Shown one piece after another: positions 1 to 12,194 of a stretch of 12,194 nt of DNA; the first letter of the stretch is position 1, and each line of letters begins with the position of its first letter. Origin of the DNA: an uncultured Clostridia bacterium (GTDB lineage Bacteria; Bacillota; Clostridia; Oscillospirales; CAG-272); contig CAMGRB010000020.1 in the NCBI GenBank assembly GCA_946061315.1, positions 1-12,194 of the forward strand, read 5' to 3'. The position numbers and the translations under genes were made by a program. The notes below the pieces were generated by a model. That model was not told where the DNA came from. It worked only from the letters and a program-made list of their open reading frames with translations, and ran no database searches.

Positions 1-21
1 CTTTTTCATAGGACACACCTG

Positions 22-67
22 AAAAAATGCTGTAGAAGTTTCCTTTGCGGAAATCTCTACAGCATTT
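22..67 (-). terminator. Rho-independent terminator after apeB
   Basis: Perfect 12-bp inverted repeat: positions 25-36 pair with 56-67 (AAATGCTGTAGA against TCTACAGCATTT). A second small hairpin, TTTCC/GGAAA (39-43 with 49-53), sits inside the loop. Read on the minus strand, the stem runs straight into a run of six T (the A run at 22-27). It lies 25 nt after the apeB stop codon, where a terminator for the asnB-apeB side would be expected. Seen directly in the sequence. Confidence 0.88.
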
Positions 68-79
68 GTTGTCAATGAG

Positions 80-100
80 TCAGCTGATGTCATCAGCTGA
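80..100. repeat. Palindrome over the apeB stop codons
   Basis: Two 10-bp arms, TCAGCTGATG (80-89) and CATCAGCTGA (91-100), flank a single central base and are exact reverse complements. On the minus-strand transcript this could fold as an 8-bp stem with a 5-nt loop. It covers the last sense codon of apeB and two tandem TGA stops (95-93 and 92-90). It lies 12 nt before the terminator stem. Role unknown; it may be a second 3'-end hairpin that protects the transcript or aids termination. Confidence 0.6.
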
Positions 101-1382
101 AGAAGCGGGTGAATGCAGTCACGCAATAGCAGTGGTCGGCCACGCTGCCCGTTTCGCGGCAGCTGTGCATGGCCAGGATGGCATTGCCCATGTCCACGCC
201 ACGCAGCGGGATAGACGAGGCGAGGATGTTGCCCAGTGTGCTGCCACCTGCCACATCGCTGTGGTTGACGAAACGCTGACAGGGAACGCCAGCCTCGCGG
301 CATATTTCTGCAAACACGGCAGCCGACACGGCATCGCTGGCATATTTCTGGGCCGCATTGAACTTGATGACGGGGCCTCCACCCAACACGGGATGGTTGG
401 TGGGGTCGAATTTCTCGGGATAGTTGGGATGCCAGGCATGGGCATTGTCGGCAGAAATCATGAAAGCCCGCTCCACAGCCTGCCAGTAGGCCTCTTCAGA
501 GCCACTCTGCGCCATGGCAATGCGCTTGAGCATGGATGCGAGGAATGGGCTTCCGGCCCCCTGCTTGGTCTGCGATCCTGTTTCCTCGTTGTCGAATATG
601 GCCAGCACCTTGGTGGTGTCGGTGAGCGGTGCGGCCAGCAAGGCCTCCAATCCGGCAAAACACATCGAGAGGTCGTCCAGACGGCCAGATGAAATCAGCT
701 CGTCGTGTACGCCAAAGGTGCAGGCCGGTGTTGTGTCGGCCAGATAGAGGTCAAAGTCGAGGATGTCTTCCTTGTTGATGTTCAGTTCGCTGCAGATGAT
801 GTTCGTCAGCATGTTGCCACGCTCCAGTTCGTCGGTCACCATGCCCAGCAGCGGCAGCACATCCTTCTGTTTGCTGAGCTTCACGCCGTCGTTCACCTGT
901 CGGTTGAAGTGAATGGCCAGGTTGCTGATCTGCAGCAGCGGCCGTTTGACGTGCATGAGCAGAGTCTTGGGCGAGAGCATGTCGTTGCCCTTCACAATCA
1001 CTCTTCCGGCAAGGGTGAGCGGGCGGTCGAACCATGTGGACATGATGGGGCCACCATACACCTCGGTGTTGAGTTTCACCATACCGCCCTCGCACAGCAT
1101 TTCGGCATTGGGCTTGATGCGGAACGTGGGCGAGTCGCAGTGGGCACAAATCATGCGGAAGCCGGCCTCGGCCAGTGGCAGCGTGCCGATGTGGAAGGCG
1201 TAGATTGAGGAGTCGTTCTTGGTGACATACAGTTTGTCTCCTGCCTTGATGCAGCCCAGCGGCATGCGTGGGTCAACATGGCGGAAGCCCGCCTTTTCCA
1301 GTTCTCCGGCGATGTTCTTGACGGCCAGGAAATTCACCGGCGAAGCGTCAAGGAAATTCATTAAGCGTTTTATCATAGTCAT
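93..1382 (-). CDS. apeB: M18 family aspartyl-type metalloaminopeptidase
   Basis: A 429-residue cytosolic zinc aminopeptidase of family M18, which removes N-terminal residues (often acidic ones) from peptides and usually forms a tetrahedral dodecamer. Length is normal for the family. The five expected metal-binding regions are all visible: AHCDSP (His81, Asp83), RLDDL (Asp236), DNEETGS (Glu266/Glu267), SADNAH (Asp312) and AMHSCRE (His406). The gene therefore looks intact. The start is ATG at 1382; a second ATG lies two codons later (1376) and cannot be excluded. No Shine-Dalgarno site precedes it, as is common in Bacteroidota. It lies 86 nt downstream of asnB on the same strand and has a possible promoter of its own. 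It ends in tandem TGA stops and a terminator. The family call is firm; apeB is the usual database symbol. Confidence 0.93.
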   Translation of the reverse strand: MTMIKRLMNFLDASPVNFLAVKNIAGELEKAGFRHVDPRMPLGCIKAGDKLYVTKNDSSIYAFHIGTLPLAEAGFRMICAHCDSPTFRIKPNAEMLCEGGMVKLNTEVYGGPIMSTWFDRPLTLAGRVIVKGNDMLSPKTLLMHVKRPLLQISNLAIHFNRQVNDGVKLSKQKDVLPLLGMVTDELERGNMLTNIICSELNINKEDILDFDLYLADTTPACTFGVHDELISSGRLDDLSMCFAGLEALLAAPLTDTTKVLAIFDNEETGSQTKQGAGSPFLASMLKRIAMAQSGSEEAYWQAVERAFMISADNAHAWHPNYPEKFDPTNHPVLGGGPVIKFNAAQKYASDAVSAAVFAEICREAGVPCQRFVNHSDVAGGSTLGNILASSIPLRGVDMGNAILAMHSCRETGSVADHCYCVTAFTRFFS

Positions 1383-1402
1383 GGGGTTATCTGATTACAG
1401 CG

Positions 1403-1410
1403 CAAAATTA
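1403..1410 (-). promoter_or_regulatory. Possible Bacteroidota -7 promoter box for apeB
   Basis: Read on the minus strand, these bases are TAATTTTG, an exact match to the Bacteroidota -7 consensus TAnnTTTG. The box ends 20 nt before the apeB ATG, which implies a short leader. A matching -33 TTTG at the usual 19-21 nt spacing is not clear; a TTTT run lies only about 14 nt upstream. The 86-nt gap between asnB and apeB holds nothing else recognisable, and no clear asnB terminator. The call rests on the single box plus its position. Confidence 0.42.
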
Positions 1411-1468
1411 CACAATATTTTCCTAAAACTTCTGTTGTGGGCGACAATTCTTGCTTTTTTATGCCATG

Positions 1469-2854
1469 CTACTTGCTGTAGGCCTGCTCGTGCACCCCAT
1501 GCACGGCCCGTCCGCTGGGGTCGTTCATGTTTTTGAACGCCTCGTCCCATGCCAGCGCCTCGGCGGTGCTGCATGCCACGCTGGGCACCCTGGGCACGCT
1601 TCGTGCGGCACTCTCTGAGGGGAAATGCTCGGCAAAGATGGAGCGGTAGAAATACTCCTCCTTGCAGCGTGGCGGATTGATGGGGAAACGCTCGGAGGCA
1701 TGAGCCATCTGCTCGTCGCTCACCCGTTCGGAGGTGATTTGCTTCAGGGTGTCGATCCACGAGTAGCCCACGCCGTCGGAGAATTGCTCTTTCTGTCGCC
1801 ACGCCACCTCACTGGGCAGCATGTGGGCAAATGCCTCGCGCACGATTTTCTTTTCCACCGTCTGTCCGGGACACATCTTCAGTTGGGGATTCAGTCGCAT
1901 GGCCACATCCAGGAACTCCTTGTCGAGGAAAGGCACACGGCCCTCTACGCCCCATGCCGCCAGGCTCTTGTTGGCCCGCAGACAATCATACAGATGCAGT
2001 TTGGAGAGCTTGCGCACGGTTTCTTCATGAAACGCCTTGGCGTTGGGTGCCTTGTGGAAATACAGATAGCCGCCAAACACCTCGTCGGCACCCTCGCCTG
2101 AGAGCACCATCTTGATGCCCATGCTCTTGATGACACGTGCCAGCAGATACATGGGTGTGGAGGCGCGCACGGTAGTCACATCGTAGGTCTCGATGAAATA
2201 GATGACATCCCTGATGGCGTCAAGCCCCTCCTGTATGGTGTAGTTGATTTCGTGGTGCACCGTGCCGATATGTTCGGCCACCATGCGGGCTTTGGCCAGG
2301 TCGGGTGCACCCTTCAGTCCCACGGCAAACGAGTGGAGCCTTGGCCACCATGCAGCCTCTCTGCCTCCTGTTTCCACACGGCGTTGTGCATATTTGGCGG
2401 CAATGGCACTGATGACCGACGAGTCGAGACCGCCGCTGAGCAGCACGCCGTAGGGCACATCGCTCATCAACTGTCTGCGCACCGCCTCTTCGAGCGCATG
2501 GTGCACATCGTCGGCTGTGCCCCCGTTGTCTTTCACCTGTTCATAGTCAAACCAGTCGCGCTTGTAATACCGTCTGATTTCGCCGTCCTTGCTGTAGAGG
2601 TAATGACCCGGTGGAAAGGGTTCATAGCGTTGGCATTGTCCTTCGAGTGCCTTCAGTTCGCTGGCCACATACACCTTGCCGTCATCATCATATCCGATAT
2701 AGAGCGGAATGACACCGATGGGGTCGCGCGCCACGAGAAAGGCCTCCTGCTCCTCGTCGTAGAGTGCAAAGGCAAAAATGCCGTTGAGTTGTTCAAGAAA
2801 ATTCACCCCTTGGTCACGATACAGCGCAAGGATGACTTCGCAGTCGCTTCCCGA
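1469..2854 (-). CDS. asnB: Asparagine synthetase B (glutamine-hydrolysing), N-terminus missing
   Basis: Makes asparagine from aspartate, ATP and glutamine in the cytosol. About 460 residues align by eye, nearly end to end, with E. coli AsnB from its GSDCEVILALY stretch (about residue 97 of 554). The rest of the glutaminase domain follows (NGIFAFALYD, RDPIGVIPLYIGY). The synthetase domain then has the ATP-pyrophosphatase loop SGGLDSS, LSGEGADEVFGGY, GRVPFLDKEF and WRQKEQFSDGVGYSW. The conserved tail (VACSTAEA, NDPSGRAVHG) ends at a TAG at 1471-1469. The first ~96 residues, including the catalytic Cys and its start codon, are absent because the sequence changes origin near 2850-2866. The frame stays open to 2908, but those extra ~18 codons read through unrelated DNA antisense to the next gene. 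The remaining sequence looks functional. Ile codons are mostly ATC, unlike the genes to the right. Confidence 0.93.
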   Translation of the reverse strand, partial: SGSDCEVILALYRDQGVNFLEQLNGIFAFALYDEEQEAFLVARDPIGVIPLYIGYDDDGKVYVASELKALEGQCQRYEPFPPGHYLYSKDGEIRRYYKRDWFDYEQVKDNGGTADDVHHALEEAVRRQLMSDVPYGVLLSGGLDSSVISAIAAKYAQRRVETGGREAAWWPRLHSFAVGLKGAPDLAKARMVAEHIGTVHHEINYTIQEGLDAIRDVIYFIETYDVTTVRASTPMYLLARVIKSMGIKMVLSGEGADEVFGGYLYFHKAPNAKAFHEETVRKLSKLHLYDCLRANKSLAAWGVEGRVPFLDKEFLDVAMRLNPQLKMCPGQTVEKKIVREAFAHMLPSEVAWRQKEQFSDGVGYSWIDTLKQITSERVSDEQMAHASERFPINPPRCKEEYFYRSIFAEHFPSESAARSVPRVPSVACSTAEALAWDEAFKNMNDPSGRAVHGVHEQAYSK

Positions 2855-2866
2855 TTTTTCCGAGCA
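2850..2866. other. Chimeric junction between two genomes
   Basis: Left of about 2854 the minus strand encodes AsnB up to its SGSDCEV residues. Right of about 2860 the plus strand encodes an FAD dehydrogenase that joins its family just before the dinucleotide-binding motif. Both genes are cut internally here, head to head, with no start codon, promoter or spacer. Base composition, codon choice, phylum signature and coding strand all change at this point. No insertion sequence, direct repeat or integrase site is visible. The exact base cannot be fixed from one sequence; a few bases may be shared by both sources. Confidence 0.85.
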
Positions 2867-4190
2867 AATTCCGCAGTTTTGCCTTAAAGACGGGCACCGC
2901 GGCGGCAAGGTACTTGTCGTCGGCTTTGGTCCTGCGGGTATGTTTTGCGCGCTTGCGCTCGCGCGCGCGGGTGTGAAGCCCGTTGTTATAGAGCGCGGTG
3001 GCGATATAGATTCCCGCGTGGCAAGCGTAAACCGCTTTTACTCCGAAAAGATACTCGATACCGAATCAAATATACAGTTCGGCGCGGGCGGAGCAGGCAC
3101 TTTCTCCGATGGAAAACTTACAACGAGAATAAACGACCCGAAATGCTCGTTTGTCCTCTCCGTATTTGCCGAGCACGGCGCACCCGAAGAAATAAAATAT
3201 ACGGCAAAGCCGCATATCGGTACGGACAAGTTAAGAAACGTCGTAAAGAACATTCAAAACGAGATAATCTCACTCGGCGGCGAAATAAGATATAACACAA
3301 AGCTACTCTCATTTTCAAACGGAGTTGCCGAAACGACGTGCGGAAAAGAAGAATATGACGATATTGTCCTTGCAATAGGGCACAGCGCGCGCGATACTTA
3401 CGCTTATCTTATGAAAAGCGGATTTGCCATAGAGCCAAAGCCCTTTTCCGTAGGAGTTCGCGCAGAGCACCTTCAAAGCGATATTAACAGAGCTATGTAC
3501 GGAGAGAGCGAAGCCTCAAAAAATCTCGGTGCGGCAGACTATAACGTGTCGTACAGGAAGGACGGACGCGGCGTTTACTCGTTTTGTATGTGCCCGGGCG
3601 GCGAGGTTGTCGCAGGGGCGAGCGAGGAGGGCGGAGTCGTCGTAAACGGTATGAGCAGTTATGCAAGGGACGGCAAAAACGCCAACTCGGCAATAGCCGT
3701 GCAGATAAACACGCAGGATTACGGAGATACAGCCGAAGGCGCAATAGAATTTCAGCGCAATCTTGAAAGAAAAGCGTTTTCTTTGGCGGGCGGCAACTAT
3801 AAAGCGCCGATACAGACCCTCGGTGACTTTTATAATGGTATCTCAAAGACCGAGCCGTCGCGGGTCATGCCCACTTATATGGACGGCAACGTGTCCCTTT
3901 GCGATATGAACAAAATTCTGCCCAAAACCGTGTGCGATTATCTTAAAATGGGCTTTCGCAAGTTCGGCGAGAAGATAGAGGGCTTTGACGCGCCCCACGT
4001 CGTCCTTACGGGAGTGGAAACGAGAACGTCCTCACCCGTGCGCATAATGAGAGGCGACGATTTTTGCGCATTCGGCAAGAGAAATATATACCCCTGCGGA
4101 GAGGGTGCGGGATATGCGGGAGGCATAATGAGTGCCGCGGTTGACGGGCTTAACGTCGCCACCGCAATACTTGAAAAATATAACGGTTGA
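2859..4190 (+). CDS. FAD-dependent dehydrogenase (COG2509-like), N-terminus missing
   Basis: A flavoprotein of the uncharacterised NAD(P)/FAD-dependent oxidoreductase family common in Firmicutes; the substrate is unknown. Visible in order: the Rossmann motif VLVVGFGPAGMF at about 2910-2945, VVIERGGD at the end of the second strand, the family signature ESNIQFGAGGAGTFSDGK, a GTDKLRNVVKNIQ segment, IGHSARDTYAYL, SVGVRAEHLQSDI, CPGGEVVAGASEEGG, GVETRTSSPVRIMRG, and the C-terminal FAD-contacting YPCGEGAGYAGGIMSAAVDG. Family members are about 530 residues, so roughly 70-90 N-terminal residues and the true start are missing, lost at the chimeric seam. An open frame reaches back to an ATG at 2778, but that part is the complement of asnB and is not real protein. 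The stop is TGA at 4188-4190; recJ follows after 39 nt. Family call firm, biochemical role unknown. Confidence 0.9.
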   Translation, partial: SEQIPQFCLKDGHRGGKVLVVGFGPAGMFCALALARAGVKPVVIERGGDIDSRVASVNRFYSEKILDTESNIQFGAGGAGTFSDGKLTTRINDPKCSFVLSVFAEHGAPEEIKYTAKPHIGTDKLRNVVKNIQNEIISLGGEIRYNTKLLSFSNGVAETTCGKEEYDDIVLAIGHSARDTYAYLMKSGFAIEPKPFSVGVRAEHLQSDINRAMYGESEASKNLGAADYNVSYRKDGRGVYSFCMCPGGEVVAGASEEGGVVVNGMSSYARDGKNANSAIAVQINTQDYGDTAEGAIEFQRNLERKAFSLAGGNYKAPIQTLGDFYNGISKTEPSRVMPTYMDGNVSLCDMNKILPKTVCDYLKMGFRKFGEKIEGFDAPHVVLTGVETRTSSPVRIMRGDDFCAFGKRNIYPCGEGAGYAGGIMSAAVDGLNVATAILEKYNG

Positions 4191-4229
4191 GGCTTCGGCT
4201 TTTCGGTTGCCTCACATATAGGAAAAGTT

Positions 4230-6398
4230 ATGGATAAACAACAGAGAAAAAAGTGGGAGGTGAAATTTACTCCCGATAAAGAAAAGTATATAGACGAAAT
4301 ATCATCAGGCACGGGTCTTTGCCGCACTATGTCAAAGCTCCTTGTCAACAGGGGGTATACCGACGTAAAATCGGCGAATGATTTTCTCGGCAAAAGAACG
4401 GAAATTCTTCACGACCCATTTTTGCTCGACGATATGGAAAAAGGAGCCGCCAGAATACTTGAATGTATCAAAGTGGGGCGCAAAATAACGGTTTACGGAG
4501 ATTATGACGTTGACGGAATAACCTCGGTCAGCATACTGTATCTTTATTTAAGCCGTGCAGGCGCCGAGGTTGAATATTATATCCCGTCAAGAAAGGGCGA
4601 GGGCTACGGCGTATCCTCCGAAGCGGTGAAGAAAATAGCATCGGGCGGGACAAGCCTTATAATCACCGTCGATACGGGCATTACCGCAAATAACGAGGTG
4701 GAAGAAGCCAAAGCGCTCGGTATTGATTTTGTAATAACCGACCACCACGAGTGCCCCGAGGTCTTGCCCGAGGCATATGCGGTTATAAATCCGAAAAGAA
4801 GCGGTAGCAAATATCCGTTTGCCTCCCTTGCGGGCGTAGGTGTGGTTTTTAAGCTCCTTTGCGCGCTTGAAGCCTTGAAAAGCGGCGAGCCGATGATTGA
4901 ATGTGTAAGGAGAATTGCAGACGGATATTCCGATCTTACCGCCATAGGAACGATAGCGGACGTTATGCCCGTTACCGACGAGAACAGAATAATAATTTCA
5001 TACGGACTTTCACTTGCGGAGTATACCGACAAAATAGGTCTTGAAAAGCTTATAAATCTTTGCAGAAGCAACGAAACCAAAACAACGAAGCAAAAGGTAA
5101 AAAAGAAGCTGTCGTCGGGCTTTATCGGCTTCGGGCTTGCCCCTAAAATAAACGCCGCGGGCAGAATAAGCGACGCCTCGATAGCGGTTGAGTTGTTTCT
5201 TACCAAGGACGAGAGCATTGCCGAGAAATACGCCATAAAGCTCTGCGAAATAAACAGGGAAAGACAGCTTGAGGAGAACAAAATAGCCGAGGAGGCAAAC
5301 GAATATATAGAAAACCATCCGTTTGACAAAAGCGGAGTTATAATAATAGAAAACGATACCTGGAATCACGGAGTTATAGGAATAGTTTCGTCAAGGATAA
5401 CGGAGAAGTATTCGCTCCCGTCTATTCTTATATCGTTCGAGGGCAACGAAGACCCGACCGACCCCGAGGCTATGGGAAAGGGCTCGGGCAGGAGTATAGG
5501 CGGCATGAACCTTGTAAACGCGCTATCCTCGTGCTCCGATCTGCTTGAAAAATACGGCGGACACGAGCTTGCCGCAGGACTTTCGGTAAAGCGCAAAAAC
5601 CTCGATGAGTTCAAAAGAAGAATGAACGAATATGCAAGAGGCTTTTTCGGTGGGGAAGCCCCCGCGCCCGCACTCGATATAGACTGCGAGCTTGATACCG
5701 ATGAAATAAACCTTTCGCTCGCCTCGGAAATTTCAATGCTTGAGCCGTACGGAGTTTCAAATCCGACGCCGCTTTTCGTTTTGCGTGACGCCAAAATAGA
5801 TGATATTGTGCCCGTCGGTATGAACAGACACCTTAAAATAAGGCTCTCAAAGGGCGATTTTTCAGTAAACGCAATGCTTTTTAGCACTTCTACCGAGGAG
5901 TTTTCGCTCCGAACGGACGATACGGTCGACGTTGCGTTCAACCTTGAAATAAACGATTTTATGGGCAATTTAAGCCCTCAAATGAACGTGAAAGATATAC
6001 GGATGAGCGAAAGCGAGTACCTGAAAGAGCTTGAAAACGAGAAAGCGTACGAAGACGTAAAATCGGGCGTATCCGCGCTTGACCCTTCCGATATAATCCC
6101 CACAAGAGAGGACTTTGCACTCATTTACAGGTTCCTCTTGAAAGAGGCGAGAGAGGGACGGGACGAATATACGGTAACCGCGCTTTTGTACGCTCTTGAA
6201 AGGTCTTTTCCCGACGTATCGCTCAATTACGTAAAGGTAAAACTTGCAATAAAGGTGATAAGAGAGCTCAACATAATTTCGGTTGAAGAAAAAGACACTA
6301 AAACGTATAAATTCAAGTTTACTTACAGCAAAAACAAAACCTCACTCGACAAATCGAACATACTTAAAACCGTAAAGGGAATGTACCCGAATAAATGA
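4230..6398 (+). CDS. recJ: Single-stranded-DNA-specific exonuclease RecJ
   Basis: 5'-3' exonuclease acting on single-stranded DNA in recombination and mismatch or base-excision repair; a cytosolic enzyme of the DHH phosphoesterase superfamily. The 722 residues show motif I YGDYDVDG (89-96), motif II VDTG (147-150), motif III DHH (171-173) and motif IV GTIADVMP (240-247). KINAAGRISDA (306-316) follows, then the DHHA1 part with GVIGIVSSRI (381-390), GSGRSIGGMN and GGHELAAG (443-450). An OB-like segment (~485-595) and an extra C-terminal region (~600-722), as in other Firmicute RecJ proteins, complete it. All metal-binding Asp/His motifs are present. The ATG at 4230 is preceded by AGGA six bases upstream. 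The TGA stop overlaps an in-frame ATG for the next gene (ATGA). B. subtilis and relatives often carry apt between recJ and relA; it is missing here. Confidence 0.96.
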   Translation: MDKQQRKKWEVKFTPDKEKYIDEISSGTGLCRTMSKLLVNRGYTDVKSANDFLGKRTEILHDPFLLDDMEKGAARILECIKVGRKITVYGDYDVDGITSVSILYLYLSRAGAEVEYYIPSRKGEGYGVSSEAVKKIASGGTSLIITVDTGITANNEVEEAKALGIDFVITDHHECPEVLPEAYAVINPKRSGSKYPFASLAGVGVVFKLLCALEALKSGEPMIECVRRIADGYSDLTAIGTIADVMPVTDENRIIISYGLSLAEYTDKIGLEKLINLCRSNETKTTKQKVKKKLSSGFIGFGLAPKINAAGRISDASIAVELFLTKDESIAEKYAIKLCEINRERQLEENKIAEEANEYIENHPFDKSGVIIIENDTWNHGVIGIVSSRITEKYSLPSILISFEGNEDPTDPEAMGKGSGRSIGGMNLVNALSSCSDLLEKYGGHELAAGLSVKRKNLDEFKRRMNEYARGFFGGEAPAPALDIDCELDTDEINLSLASEISMLEPYGVSNPTPLFVLRDAKIDDIVPVGMNRHLKIRLSKGDFSVNAMLFSTSTEEFSLRTDDTVDVAFNLEINDFMGNLSPQMNVKDIRMSESEYLKELENEKAYEDVKSGVSALDPSDIIPTREDFALIYRFLLKEAREGRDEYTVTALLYALERSFPDVSLNYVKVKLAIKVIRELNIISVEEKDTKTYKFKFTYSKNKTSLDKSNILKTVKGMYPNK

Positions 6399-6404
6399 AA
6401 GGAG
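6398..6404 (+). promoter_or_regulatory. Ribosome binding site deciding the relA start
   Basis: AAAGGAG, 8 nt before the ATG at 6413. It overlaps the last base of the recJ stop codon. An in-frame ATG at 6395 overlaps the recJ stop, but this strong site lies downstream of it, so translation most likely starts at 6413. Confidence 0.8.
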
Positions 6405-6412
6405 ATACCGCC

Positions 6413-8629
6413 ATGGCAGACGAAGATCTTAAAATGATAGAGCCGCTTTTTGAACTGCTTAAATCAAACGGCAAAAAATATGACTTTGAAAAAATAAAAT
6501 CGGCTTTTCTTTACGCCGATGAAATGCATAAGGGACAAAAGCGTTTGAGCGGAGATCCCTACATTACGCATCCCATCGCGGTTGCGGAGAGCGTTGCGGG
6601 GCTCGGTCTTGATACGGACTCCATATGTGCGGCGTTCCTTCACGATACGGTTGAGGATTGCCCCGATAAAACGGACCTTGATAAGATAAGAGAGCTTTTC
6701 GGTGACGAGGTAGCTCTTTTGGTGGACGGCGTAACGAAGATAAAATCCATAAATATCGAGGACAAGGAAGAGGAGCACATCGAGAACATAAGGAAGATGC
6801 TCCTTGCAATGTCCAAGGATATAAGGGTCATATTTATAAAGCTCTGCGACAGAATGCACAATATGCGCACTTTGTACGTAAAAAAGGACGAGAAAAGGCG
6901 CGCAACGGCTCTTGAAACGATGCACATATACGCGCCGCTTGCACACCGCCTCGGTATGCAAAAGGTAAAGCAGGAGCTTGAAAACTACGCCCTTATGTAC
7001 CTCGACCCGATAGGGTATAACGAAATAAAACAGCATATCGACGAGAAGTACGGCAAAAACGTAAATTTCATTGAAAATCTAAAAACCGATATAAGCGAAA
7101 AGCTGAAGCAGACGAACATAAACTTCACGCTTGAGGGGCGCGTAAAGACGGTTTACAGTATTTATCGCAAAATGTACAATCAGAACAAGTCGTTTGACGA
7201 AATATACGATTTTTACGCCCTTCGTATAATAGTCGATACGGAATACGAATGTTATACCGTGCTCGGTATGATACACGAGATGTATAAATCCGTTCCGGGC
7301 AGATTCAAGGACTATATATCAACTCCTAAACCCAATATGTATCAGTCGCTCCATACCACCGTAATAGGAAAGGACGGTATTCCGTTCGAGGTGCAGATAA
7401 GGACCAAGGAGATGCACCAGGTCGCTGAATACGGTGTGGCGGCGCATTGGAAATATAAGAGCGGCGAGAAGGCGGGCGCCGATATAGATAAGCGTCTTGA
7501 ATGGATATCAAAGCTTATAGATACCGAAAACGACGCTATGGATCCCGACGATTTCATTCACGCATTCAAAATTGATATTTTCCACGATGAAACGTTTGTA
7601 TTTACCCCAAAGGGCGACGTTATAGCGTTGCCTTTCGGCGCAACACTTATAGATTTTGCCTACTCGATACATACGGGCGTCGGAAATAAAATGGTAGGCG
7701 CCAAGATAAACGGCAGAATCGCACCTATTGACTCCGTGCCCAAAAACGGAGATATAGTCGAGGTATTGACCTCAAATTCGTCCAAGGGACCGAGCAGGGA
7801 TTGGCTCAATATAGTAAAGACGGGCGAAGCAAGAAACAAAATAAGACAGTGGTTCAAGAAAGAGAAGCGCCAGGAAAACATAATTGTCGGAAAAGCGGAG
7901 GTTGAAAAGGAATTTGCACGCTTCCGTTCCTCCTGCAACGACGACGAGAGAAATGAAATAGTTACGGCAGTTGCAAAGCGCTTCGGCATGAACGAGGCGG
8001 ACGACCTCTACAACGCTCTCGGCTACGGCGGAATAACTCTTTCCAAGGTGGAATCAAAGCTCCGTGACGAACACGACAGAATGTTCAAGGAAAAGGAGAT
8101 GGCGGCGCCTGTACAAATAGAGCCCACCGTATCGACCGTAAGAAAGCACCGCTCGACAGGCGGAGTTATAGTTGACGGCGAGGACGGCTGTACCGTCAAA
8201 TTTGCAAAATGCTGCAATCCTTTGCCGGGTGAGGACATAATAGGCTTTATAACCAAGGGATACGGAATATCCGTTCACAGAGCCGACTGCCCGAATATAA
8301 GAAACGCCTATGCAAACGAGGAAAACGCAAACAGAATAGTAAAGGTGGAGTGGGATACGCCCACCTCGGGAACGTACAAGTCTTCTTACGATTCCGCAAT
8401 ACAGATAATAGTATCGAGCAGAATTTCATTGCTTGCCGAAATATCCGGTGCGCTTGCCGATATGAGGGTCGATATAGTGTCAATAAACACAAAGAAAGTA
8501 GAGGATACCACCGTTATAAATATGACGATTTCCTGCAGGGATATAGACCATTTTAATTCCATACTCACAAGGATAAGAGGAATAAAGGACGTCATAAGAG
8601 TAACGAGAGTAACGGGGGCATCAAAATGA
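6413..8629 (+). CDS. relA: Bifunctional (p)ppGpp synthetase/hydrolase (Rel)
   Basis: Makes and degrades the stringent-response alarmone (p)ppGpp in response to ribosomes stalled by uncharged tRNA. With the chosen ATG it has 738 residues, typical of a long RSH protein. The N-terminal HD hydrolase domain has THP (His53), FLHDTVED (His77-Asp78) and CDRMHNMRT (Asp146). The synthetase domain spans about 240-350, with YDFYALRIIV, GRFKDYIS and NMYQSLHTTV. The RFKD sequence (297-300) is the RxKD form of bifunctional Rel enzymes, not the ExDD form of monofunctional RelA. A TGS domain (VFTPKGDVIALPFGAT, ~396-455), a Cys/His motif (Cys600, Cys601, His622, Cys626) and a C-terminal ACT domain (~660-735) follow. 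Hydrolase and synthetase residues both look intact. The alternative start at 6395 would add six residues. The stop overlaps the dtd ATG by 4 nt. Confidence 0.96.
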   Translation: MADEDLKMIEPLFELLKSNGKKYDFEKIKSAFLYADEMHKGQKRLSGDPYITHPIAVAESVAGLGLDTDSICAAFLHDTVEDCPDKTDLDKIRELFGDEVALLVDGVTKIKSINIEDKEEEHIENIRKMLLAMSKDIRVIFIKLCDRMHNMRTLYVKKDEKRRATALETMHIYAPLAHRLGMQKVKQELENYALMYLDPIGYNEIKQHIDEKYGKNVNFIENLKTDISEKLKQTNINFTLEGRVKTVYSIYRKMYNQNKSFDEIYDFYALRIIVDTEYECYTVLGMIHEMYKSVPGRFKDYISTPKPNMYQSLHTTVIGKDGIPFEVQIRTKEMHQVAEYGVAAHWKYKSGEKAGADIDKRLEWISKLIDTENDAMDPDDFIHAFKIDIFHDETFVFTPKGDVIALPFGATLIDFAYSIHTGVGNKMVGAKINGRIAPIDSVPKNGDIVEVLTSNSSKGPSRDWLNIVKTGEARNKIRQWFKKEKRQENIIVGKAEVEKEFARFRSSCNDDERNEIVTAVAKRFGMNEADDLYNALGYGGITLSKVESKLRDEHDRMFKEKEMAAPVQIEPTVSTVRKHRSTGGVIVDGEDGCTVKFAKCCNPLPGEDIIGFITKGYGISVHRADCPNIRNAYANEENANRIVKVEWDTPTSGTYKSSYDSAIQIIVSSRISLLAEISGALADMRVDIVSINTKKVEDTTVINMTISCRDIDHFNSILTRIRGIKDVIRVTRVTGASK

Positions 8630-9072
8630 AGGCGGTACTTCAAAGAGTTTCGTCCGCATCGGTCAAGGTTGACGGCAAGGTCGTCGGCAAAACGGACGGC
8701 GGTATGCTTGTTTTGCTCGGCGTAAAGGTCGGAGATACCGAGAAGGACGCGGATTTACTTGCCGATAAAATAGGCAAGCTGCGGATATTTTCGGACGAGC
8801 TTGGAAAAATGAATTTAAGCATAGATAAAATCGGAGGCTCGTTCCTCGTAATTTCAAATTTTACGTTGCTTGCAAACTATAAAAACGGCAACCGCCCCGA
8901 TTATCTCGAAGCCGAAAAGCCCGATACGGCAAACAGGCTCTACGAATATTTTTGCGAGCGCCTTTCACGCTATGCCGCGGTTGAAAAAGGAATTTTCGGC
9001 GCGGATATGAAGGTCGGGCTTGTAAACGACGGACCTATTACCATAGTTATGGATAGTGAAAAACTGAAATGA
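8626..9072 (+). CDS. dtd: D-aminoacyl-tRNA deacylase
   Basis: Hydrolyses D-amino acids (and Gly from mischarged tRNA-Ala) from tRNA, keeping them out of protein synthesis; a cytosolic homodimer. At 148 residues it has the normal family length. It opens with the family's MKAVLQRVSSASVKVDG and carries GKLRIFSDELGKMNLS, FGADMKV and the catalytic NDGPITI stretch, whose Gly-cisPro enforces D-chirality. The other active-site motif, normally SQFTL, reads SNFTL (about residues 77-81), a mild change also present, as I recall, in some clostridial homologues. Its ATG overlaps the relA stop (ATGA), and a weak GGGGG site lies 7 nt upstream, so translation is probably coupled. The relA-dtd pair is a long-known Firmicute arrangement. 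Confidence 0.95.
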   Translation: MKAVLQRVSSASVKVDGKVVGKTDGGMLVLLGVKVGDTEKDADLLADKIGKLRIFSDELGKMNLSIDKIGGSFLVISNFTLLANYKNGNRPDYLEAEKPDTANRLYEYFCERLSRYAAVEKGIFGADMKVGLVNDGPITIVMDSEKLK

Positions 9073-10529
9073 AGCTTATTTTAGACGGAAAAATAAACAG
9101 AACTTACGTACAGACACTTTGTATGGCGTTTTTCCACGGCGAAAAATTTCCAAAGGACGAAAAAGACGCCACGACTGTTCTGTACGTCAAAACCGAGGAC
9201 AGAGAAGGCGGCATATACTGCGAGGCGGAGCTTTGCACACAGAATGGCAAAGAGCGCGCAACCTCGTTTGATGCGTTTTCGGGGATAAAGAGTTATGAGA
9301 GAGTGTCGAAAACGGCAGTCGGCAAGGCTGTGTATGAGGCCGCCTCAAAACTGACGGGCAAGAGCTTGCCGTGGGGAATACTCACGGGCATACGTCCGTC
9401 AAAGGTAGCGGCGGATCTTATAAAAGACGAGGGTAAAGGGTGCGCCTCGGAGATACTTAAAAACGAGTATCTTTTAAGCGATAAAAAGATACGTCTTGTG
9501 ACCGACGTTGCACAAAACGAAAAGAAAATCATTTCTTTGGCAACGGACAAAACGTGCAGTATTTATATTTCAATACCGTTTTGCCCGTCAAGATGCAATT
9601 ACTGTTCTTTTATCTCGTACGCAACGCCGAAGCTCTTTTCGCTGATACCGGAATATCTTAACCGTCTTATGCTTGATATAAAGAATACTTTTGAAACCGT
9701 AAAATCGCTCGGATTAAAGGTGCTTTGCGTGTATATAGGCGGAGGAACGCCCACGGTACTTAATGAAAGCCAACTCGATAAGCTCCTTTCCTGCATAGGA
9801 AATTGCATTGATACGAAAGAGCTTCTCGAATTTACGCTTGAGGGCGGAAGACCAGATACGATAACCGAGGAAAAGCTCCGCATAGCAAAAGCGCACGGAG
9901 TAAACCGTATAAGCGTAAATCCGCAGTCCTTAAACGATTCTGTACTTGAAAAAATAGGGAGAAAGCATACGGTAGCCGACTTTCTTATGGCTTACGAAAC
10001 TGTTGAAAAAAGCGGCATAGAGCATATAAATACCGACCTTATAGCAGGACTTGACGGCGACACGAAAGAGAGCTTTCAGAATACTGTTGACAAGATAATA
10101 TCGCTCTCTCCCGGTAACGTAACCGTTCACACGCTTTGTGTAAAAAACGCGGCAGAGATAAGAAAAGGCGGTGCAGCTTACGAAACGGACGATAAGGCGG
10201 CAAGCGCAAGCGTCGATTACGCTTACGACAGGCTTACCGAGTGCGGATACGCGCCGTACTATCTTTACAGGCAGAAAAACACCGTGTCCGACCTTGAAAA
10301 CGTCGGTTATTCAAAGCCCGGCGAGGAGGGGCTTTATAACGTCTTTATGATGGCGGACGCCCACACCGTTTTCGGAGTTGGGGCAGGCTCAACGACAAAA
10401 CTCGTTTTTTCAAATGAAGGAAAAACGGAAATAAAAAGAATATTTTCACCGAAATATCCATATGAATATTTGCAGGACAACCAAAACAAGTATAAGGAAG
10501 CAGAGGACTTTTTCAAAAAGGAGGTATAA
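9069..10529 (+). CDS. hemZ: Radical SAM coproporphyrinogen dehydrogenase-like HemZ
   Basis: Oxygen-independent coproporphyrinogen III oxidase-like protein of the HemN/HemW/HemZ group (486 residues; B. subtilis HemZ is about 500). The N-terminal ~160 residues are the HemZ-specific part, including WGILTGIRPSK at 102-112. The radical SAM core follows: YISIPFCPSRCNYCSF with the iron-sulfur cysteines Cys172, Cys176 and Cys179, then VYIGGGTPT (221-229), EGGRPDTI and NTDLIAGLDGD. The cluster motif CxxxCxYCxF is of the HemW/HemZ type, not the CxxxCxxCxC of true HemN, so heme synthesis should not be assumed; radical chemistry or heme handling are possible. The ATG overlaps the dtd stop (ATGA). Its 3' end contains the ribosome binding site of the kinase gene. 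No other heme gene is in the window. Confidence 0.88.
   Translation: MKLILDGKINRTYVQTLCMAFFHGEKFPKDEKDATTVLYVKTEDREGGIYCEAELCTQNGKERATSFDAFSGIKSYERVSKTAVGKAVYEAASKLTGKSLPWGILTGIRPSKVAADLIKDEGKGCASEILKNEYLLSDKKIRLVTDVAQNEKKIISLATDKTCSIYISIPFCPSRCNYCSFISYATPKLFSLIPEYLNRLMLDIKNTFETVKSLGLKVLCVYIGGGTPTVLNESQLDKLLSCIGNCIDTKELLEFTLEGGRPDTITEEKLRIAKAHGVNRISVNPQSLNDSVLEKIGRKHTVADFLMAYETVEKSGIEHINTDLIAGLDGDTKESFQNTVDKIISLSPGNVTVHTLCVKNAAEIRKGGAAYETDDKAASASVDYAYDRLTECGYAPYYLYRQKNTVSDLENVGYSKPGEEGLYNVFMMADAHTVFGVGAGSTTKLVFSNEGKTEIKRIFSPKYPYEYLQDNQNKYKEAEDFFKKEV
10518..10524 (+). promoter_or_regulatory. Ribosome binding site of the kinase gene
   Basis: AAGGAGG, a near-perfect Shine-Dalgarno sequence 7 nt before the ATG at 10532. 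It lies inside the last codons of hemZ, so the two genes are tightly packed and probably share a transcript. Confidence 0.8.
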
Positions 10530-10531
10530 AA

Positions 10532-11437
10532 ATGAGAACGCTCAATATATCTTTTTCGAGTGAAAAAGACAAAAAAGAATTTGTAAAGGAATGTGAAAAC
10601 GACTTTGAAAAGAGGCTCTCCGACGCCTCCGAAAGGGTAATAAAAAGCGGCAAAAGAAATATACTTTTATCGGGACCGACCTGCTCGGGCAAGACGACGA
10701 CCGCAAATAAGATAATAGACGATTTTATAAAGGACGGCAAGAAAACCACCGTAATTTCGTTTGACGATTTCTTTAAGGAAAGGCTTGACGAGAGGAGAGT
10801 TGACGAAAACGAAAAAATCGACTATGATTCCGTCGACGTTTTAGACCTTGACCTTCTTCGCAGGTGTGTGAGTAACATAAAACCGGATAGCGTTTTTGAA
10901 GTTCCCGTGTTCGATTTTGTGTCGCAAAGGAGAGCGGGCTTTGTTAAGCACAAGGTCGAGAAGGACGATATATTGATTTTTGAGGGAATACAAGCAGTAT
11001 ATCCCGAGGTTATCTCGCTTTTCGGCACGGATTATACGGGAATATTCATAAACGTAAACGAGGACGTTTTGTTAAACGGAATATTCTTCTCGCGTGACGA
11101 AATACGCTTTATAAGAAGAATAGTAAGAGATCGCAAGTTCAGGGGTGCAAGTCCCGATTTTACCTATTTTCTCTGGGAAACGGTAAGGGAAAACGAGGAT
11201 AAGAGCATATTCCCGAATAAGAATATATGCAAGGTACAGATAGATTCCTTTATGGGATACGAGCTGTTCCTTATGAAAAGATACGTCCTTGATACTCTGA
11301 AAGAAATAAAAAAGGACGGTTTATATTTCAAAGAAGCGGAAAAACTAAAAGAGAAGTTTGAAGGGCTTGATGAAATAAGCTACGATTATATTCCCGCAAA
11401 TTCGCTTTATACCGAGTTTCTGGGAAAGAAAAATTAA
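10532..11437 (+). CDS. Uridine-kinase-like nucleoside kinase (P-loop)
   Basis: A 301-residue P-loop kinase of the phosphoribulokinase/uridine kinase family, predicted to phosphorylate a nucleoside with ATP in the cytosol. Visible features: Walker A GPTCSGKTT (48-56), VISFDDFF (74-81) where uridine kinases bind the substrate, PVFDFVSQRR (125-134), the Walker-B-like ILIFEGIQAV (147-156), and the lid-type Arg-rich IRRIVRDRKFRG followed by SIFPNKN. The sequence most resembles the kinase half of the longer clostridial nucleoside kinase (about 550 residues), which carries TGS and tRNA-synthetase-like domains in front. Those ~250 residues are absent here: only ~40 charged residues precede the P-loop. 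The protein is much longer than classical Udk (~210). The start is well supported by the strong ribosome site. True substrate unproven. Confidence 0.82.
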   Translation: MRTLNISFSSEKDKKEFVKECENDFEKRLSDASERVIKSGKRNILLSGPTCSGKTTTANKIIDDFIKDGKKTTVISFDDFFKERLDERRVDENEKIDYDSVDVLDLDLLRRCVSNIKPDSVFEVPVFDFVSQRRAGFVKHKVEKDDILIFEGIQAVYPEVISLFGTDYTGIFINVNEDVLLNGIFFSRDEIRFIRRIVRDRKFRGASPDFTYFLWETVRENEDKSIFPNKNICKVQIDSFMGYELFLMKRYVLDTLKEIKKDGLYFKEAEKLKEKFEGLDEISYDYIPANSLYTEFLGKKN

Positions 11438-11441
11438 GAGG
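11438..11441 (+). promoter_or_regulatory. Ribosome binding site for a TTG-started flippase
   Basis: GAGG, 7 nt before TTG at 11449, just after the kinase stop codon. It supports TTG as the start, since no in-frame ATG lies nearby; the first in-frame ATG comes about 80 codons later, inside the second membrane segment. Confidence 0.6.
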
Positions 11442-11448
11442 AAACGTT

Positions 11449-12194
11449 TTGGATAACAACATAAAGCAAGCAAACGCAAGAAAAAGCGACGTAAGCCTGT
11501 TTTTCTCGGGAGTGCTTATACTTACTGTTGCCAATATACTTGTAAAAGCAGTAGGTCTTGTAACCAAAATAGCGCTCAACAGAGTAGTTGAAAGCGTCGG
11601 GGCGGGATATTACAGCTCCGCTTACGAAATATACGCATATTTGTACGTAATATCGACGGCGGGACTTCCCGTTGCGCTTTCCATAATGGTATCAAAGAGC
11701 AGGGCGAGCGGAAGATTTAACGAGGCAAAAAAGATTTTCAATATCGCCATGGCGGTATTTTTAACGATAGGCTTTGTATTTTCCACTCTTATGATAGCAT
11801 TTTCCGACGGGATAGCCTCGTTTATAGGCTCCGAGGAAACGTCACTTTGCATAGTAGCCATAGCGCCGACTATACTTTTTATATGTTTAAGCAGTTGTAT
11901 GCGCGGATATTTTCAAGGCTACCAGCAAATGAGTCAGACTGCCATATCGCAGTTTATAGAGGCGGTATGCAAGGTAGGCGTGGGTGTTGCGCTTGCGGTA
12001 TGGGCAAAGAGCAAAGGCTATGACGACTTTGTGGTTGCCGCATATACGATACTCGGCGTTACGGTCGGCGTATTTCTCGGAATGGTCTTTTTGTATATAA
12101 GAAAGCTGTTTTTTAAGGAAGAACGCTATAACGCACTTCTTGACGTACCCGCAAATACGGAATGTAAAAAGACGAAACCGCTTCTTAAAGAGCT
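11449..12194 (+). CDS. MurJ/SpoVB-family lipid flippase, 3' end beyond window
   Basis: First 248 codons of a polytopic membrane protein of the MOP flippase superfamily (polysaccharide biosynthesis/SpoVB/MurJ group), which moves lipid-linked sugar precursors such as lipid II across the inner membrane. Full members have about 450-550 residues and 14 helices. Hydrophobic segments are visible at about 17-39, 62-82, 97-119, 131-150, 165-186 and 194-218. Family marks include the first helix (GVLILTVANILVKAVGLVTK), the GAGYYSSAYEIYAY segment, and MRGYFQGYQQMSQTAISQ, which matches the SpoVB-type RGYFQG loop. The likely start is TTG (GAGG site 7 nt upstream), 11 nt after the kinase stop. The frame is open to the window edge. 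Whether it is a sporulation SpoVB or a general MurJ cannot be told from this half. Confidence 0.85.
   Translation, partial: MDNNIKQANARKSDVSLFFSGVLILTVANILVKAVGLVTKIALNRVVESVGAGYYSSAYEIYAYLYVISTAGLPVALSIMVSKSRASGRFNEAKKIFNIAMAVFLTIGFVFSTLMIAFSDGIASFIGSEETSLCIVAIAPTILFICLSSCMRGYFQGYQQMSQTAISQFIEAVCKVGVGVALAVWAKSKGYDDFVVAAYTILGVTVGVFLGMVFLYIRKLFFKEERYNALLDVPANTECKKTKPLLKE

Follow-up and report, generated by a model that had tools for sequence, protein, structure and literature searches.

The contig analysed here raises the question of whether its two ends come from one organism. It carries, head to head, an asparagine synthase gene (asnB) on the minus strand and an FAD-dependent dehydrogenase gene on the plus strand, and the original prediction held that these belong to different phyla and are truncated at the same point. 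The window, by which we mean the whole stretch of DNA analysed (12,194 nucleotides), is the complete contig C20, positions 1–12194. The assembly of which it is a part has 1,414,359 bases in 223 contigs, is 82.11% complete and 1.34% contaminated, and from its size, contig count and completeness and contamination figures appears to be a metagenome bin.

Origins of the two arms

We observed that bases 1–2853 are Bacteroidales DNA and that bases 2854–12194 are Clostridia-type DNA. The named relatives of each arm bear out the predicted difference in origin. The features of the window are listed below, where the gene places are those kept in five regions from relatives of the right arm.

1..2853, no strand: left arm, foreign to the remaining assembly; a Bacteroidales (Prevotella-like) species by GC, tetranucleotides and 98–100% protein identities
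93..1382, minus strand: M18 aminopeptidase gene, complete (Pfam PF02127, 1.6e-121)
1469..2853, minus strand: asnB (asparagine synthase B), 3' part, residues ~97–556 (Pfam PF00733; GATase_7, PF13537, solely from profile position 49)
2853..2854, no strand: seam, apparently a blunt join, the codon comparison giving no base common to both parents
2854..4190, plus strand: FAD-dependent dehydrogenase gene, 3' part, from about residue 83 of 527 (Pfam PF21688)
4230..6398, plus strand: recJ-type exonuclease gene (Pfam DHH, DHHA1, RecJ_OB; next after the FAD gene in 5/5 regions)
6395..8629, plus strand: relA/spoT gene (Pfam HD_4, RelA_SpoT, TGS, ACT_4; next after recJ in 5/5 regions)
8626..9072, plus strand: dtd, D-Tyr-tRNA deacylase gene (Pfam PF02580; place kept in 4/5 regions, the fifth stops before it)
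9069..10529, plus strand: radical-SAM gene, presumably HemZ-like (Pfam PF04055; place kept in 4/5 regions, the fifth stops before it)
10532..11437, plus strand: uridine-kinase-like gene (Pfam PF00485; place kept in 4/5 regions, the fifth stops before it)
11449..12192, plus strand: polysaccharide-type flippase gene, 5' part, running off the contig end (Pfam PF01943, MatE; place kept in two regions, L106 and L107, the remaining three stopping before it)

The GC content is 56.8% in the left arm, and 45.7% both in the right arm and in ten other contigs of the assembly. Tetranucleotide frequencies of the left arm correlate with those of the ten contigs at −0.04 and with those of ten Bacteroidales loci at 0.80; the right arm correlates with the ten contigs at 0.977. 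As a control, 40 chunks of the same size from the ten contigs gave correlations from 0.434 to 0.936 (median 0.90), and three right-arm chunks of equal size gave 0.89, 0.92 and 0.96. The lowest chunk (0.434) falls inside a repetitive reading frame, and we attribute its odd composition to this long, acidic-looking frame. The frame lies on contig C5 of the same assembly (L135:11279-14527), encodes 1082 aa, is acidic with repeated coiled-coil-like segments, contains a tandem unit of 318 bases in 2.1 copies, and differs far in composition from the remaining assembly.

In the left arm, the open asnB frame runs on the minus strand at 1469–2908. As predicted, the AsnB homology stops at the SGSDCEV residues, ending at window base 2853, and the window lacks residues 1–96 of 556. 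Relatives were sought with the scoring limited to the 8000 candidates with the most words in common with the query. The 120 AsnB relatives listed are 98–99% identical, all start upstream of the seam, and measure 556 aa in 114 cases, 571 in 4, 573 in 1 and 533 in 1; the best of them are identical at 459/460 residues past the seam. In place of the window's S-G-S-D-C-E-V, all 120 have T-G-S-D-C-E-V. Among the 18 window residues preceding this S, S16 agrees in 120/120 of the listed relatives, two others agree in 2 and 1, and the remainder in none. The names on these relatives, where given, are Prevotella sp. or Bacteroidales bacterium. The M18 matches, again among the 120 listed, are 99–100% identical, the first, P0241 from a 12,194-base contig, being presumably the window's own protein. 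Directly past the M18 stop codon, at window 22–70, lies a terminator-like inverted repeat with 22-base arms (86% complementary) and a 5-base gap. Rfam searches of the window and one other contig gave no match at the gathering threshold.

In the left parent species M18 and asnB probably lie side by side, because the AsnB and M18 lists (120 rows each) coincide in 22 longest-contig sizes; the AsnB and FAD lists coincide in none. M18 adjoined asnB in 0/80 more distant Bacteroidales loci, whose flanks reach at most 6 kb and are often shorter, so the view of the left arm as one native piece rests on the coinciding contig sizes. The DNA of the left parent was not found in a scan of genome contigs (best protein identity 84% among the best 80 loci of a larger number), in 13 genomes from G038's genus (11 with a match, best 84%), or in 399 genomes drawn from a larger family (238 with a match, best 84% among those listed). 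Within the plasmid collection 15 records matched, all at 60–80% identity and none covering 80% of the query; the matches of the 10 listed reach no further than window base 2851, 7 of these records carrying an asnB annotation there and 3 no annotation.

The right arm opens with the plus-strand FAD frame (2778–4190), in which Pfam matched FAD-depend_C, and FAD-binding families from residues 44–46. Homology of this protein begins at 2854, leaving ~83 of 527 N-terminal residues missing, a figure that lies within the ~70–90 of the original prediction. Protein P0121 is 98% identical to it from residue 83 of 527 (434/444 residues). The search covered 38 genomes: its own, 22 of the same genus and 15 of the same order. 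Matches were present in 33, at E <1e-100 in 28 and weak and paralogue-like in five; the other five genomes gave no match. Besides its own genome, the closest relative is in G015 (93%), a contig of which is collinear with window 2854–5686 at 87.4% DNA identity (blastn). Named relatives, 69–71% identical, are 'Clostridia bacterium' and 'Ruminococcaceae bacterium'.

Intact FAD genes of 522–527 aa are found in 5/5 of the regions from relatives, the G015 gene having 527 aa. In all five, G015 included, a small co-directional upstream gene, which we take to be YbbR-like, shares 4 bases with the start of the FAD gene. The four regions that reach far enough have a cdaA-like gene, presumably cdaA, preceding the small gene; the G015 contig stops before it, and the cdaA-like match of G015 sits on contig C104. 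Downstream, the order FAD, recJ, relA, dtd, radical-SAM, uridine-kinase-like and flippase is that of the window, as far as each region reaches. The identity of the FAD relatives and this gene order show the right arm to be ordinary DNA of the genus, beginning within the FAD gene. The cluster conserved in the genus (L105:76-516, L106–L109) thus comprises the gene we take to be YbbR-like followed by the seven genes just named.

The seam between 2853 and 2854

The span originally given for the truncation, 2850–2866, includes the seam, which lies between 2853 and 2854 and within a codon of each gene. The native start codons of both genes are absent, as is any intergenic region, and the minus-strand (1469–2908) and plus-strand (2778–4190) frames overlap head to head, crossing the seam only through the antisense of the other gene. 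In all these respects the locus is as it had been described, and both genes are otherwise well conserved, with 459/460 (AsnB) and 434/444 (FAD) residues identical to relatives.

The codons at the seam set its limits. On the minus strand, codon 19 of the AsnB frame is TCG, and the relatives encode T (ACN) there; its first base, 2854, cannot be parental, and its second, 2853, matches throughout. The FAD frame, on the plus strand, has GAT at codon 26, compared to Y (TAY) in P0121 and P0122 and TAT in G015; in this case 2853 is not parental and 2854 matches. Provided that the parents keep these residues, they would meet exactly at 2853/2854 with zero bases in common. The blastn limits agree with the codons, the homology on the right beginning at 2854 and the furthest alignment on the left reaching 2856 (L034, with a mismatch at 2854). 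Alignments to the Bacteroidales relatives, at 72–77% DNA identity, end between ~2499 and 2856. As no DNA of the left parent itself turned up in the collections searched, the left limit of the seam rests on the codons and on these 72–77% relatives.

No repeat spans 2853/2854 among those listed (20 of at least 60 direct families and 25 of 29 inverted pairs). The weak 73–75% repeat pairs D11 and I8 each have one copy at 2903–2928. Pfam matched none of the window's nine genes to a mobility family (transposase, integrase).

Recurrence of the junction in an isolate genome assembled independently had been named in the original prediction as evidence of a real rearrangement; the junction was absent from the other genomes of the genus that were searched (0/28). 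A 200-base query spanning the seam was matched over its full length only by the window's own genome; 10 of these 28 genomes matched it in part, all from query base 100 or later. Not one of 127 blastn matches outside the window's own region, of which two copies were excluded, crossed the seam, and the junction was seen in none of the 120 AsnB relatives listed, a count of the entries displayed and not of the members of their clusters.

Neither the FAD 5' part nor the stretch preceding it was found elsewhere in the assembly, which is 82% complete. In the initial 1000 bases of G015's contig, which hold the upstream gene and the FAD 5' part, similarity to the assembly starts only at window base 2854. 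P0121 has one further weak match in the assembly, on C1 (residues 74–129, E 2.8e-4). No match to the G020 cdaA-like protein was found in the assembly; 7/8 control genomes (all except G007) had one. Since the assembly is incomplete, the absences of the FAD 5' part and of the cdaA-like gene lend support and do not decide.

How the join may have arisen

Judged from these sequence comparisons, the contig is very probably a chimera of two organisms, whatever its technical cause, a shared k-mer included. In the mechanism that we propose, 2,853 bases of a Bacteroidales species would have been joined end to end with 9,341 bases of the assembly's Clostridia-type organism, either by ligation of two fragments in library making or in a chimeric read, and then carried into the contig; the binner would have assigned the product by its longer right arm. 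Library ligation chimeras join unrelated fragments that have no common sequence, and the present join resembles them, being overlap-free and cutting each gene at an arbitrary codon. The 'misassembly or ligation chimera' of the original prediction is supported. Within it the zero-base overlap deduced from the codons favours the second term: with no base common to the parents at the seam, library ligation or a chimeric read appears likelier than a walk through a shared k-mer.

Such a walk, in which the assembler switched genomes at a common k-mer, would be a sub-case of the chimera. It should leave about k bases of overlap; none was seen, the AsnB T/ACN and FAD Y/TAY codons giving zero common bases at the seam, and this counts against it. 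On the other hand, the passages on this point by the GUNC authors count misassembly among the causes of contig chimerism in metagenome bins, and expect the principal errors in such bins to be computational, with misassemblies relatively rare (PMC8201837). The expectation of mainly computational errors favours a graph error and in general counts against our preference for a library cause. The window is like the chimeric contigs in those passages, the kind of error that GUNC is aimed at, in having genes of two lineages on one contig, here in an assembly with a stated contamination of only 1.34%; it is unlike a computational misassembly of that type in that its seam is base-exact and overlap-free, pointing more to a chimeric molecule. 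We consider an assembly-graph origin possible but unlikely.

A technical chimera, our preferred reading, has also to be weighed against two histories within a single genome. One is a real and very recent insertion or rearrangement that brought Bacteroidales DNA into the Clostridia-type genome and cut both genes, which we regard as very improbable. Homology-free joins also arise in cells through end joining, and the two organisms may share a habitat. However, the left-arm proteins are 98–100% identical to Bacteroidales relatives and the composition of the arm is unlike that of the other contigs, none of the nine genes has a Pfam match to a transposase or integrase, the FAD 5' part and its preceding stretch are missing from the assembly, and none of the 28 other genus genomes has the junction. 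A genuine, extremely recent joining of DNA from two phyla inside a cell, which would set Bacteroidales housekeeping DNA beside the Clostridia-type recJ/relA cluster with neither homology nor a mobile element at the seam, is hardly to be expected. The other history, slow decay of two adjoining genes in one genome, would fit the meeting of two truncated genes at a single point, but the remnants are almost unchanged from their relatives and the arms differ in origin and composition; we give it practically no credence. Insertion of a mobile element was considered and rejected, there being no mobility families in the nine proteins and no listed repeat over 2853/2854. A real divergent promoter between asnB and the FAD gene was rejected as well.

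Reading the contig

The seam is almost certainly a library or assembly artefact and no real genetic arrangement. The caution that neighbour-based conclusions over this point are unsafe was well placed, as two origins meet at 2853/2854, and no promoter, divergent gene pair or neighbourhood should be read over it. The contig offers a worked case in which a base-exact seam with no overlap argues for a chimeric molecule as against computational misassembly. For the Clostridia-type species, M18 and asnB are not to be counted among its genes, and the shortened FAD gene is no evidence for a broken gene in this organism.
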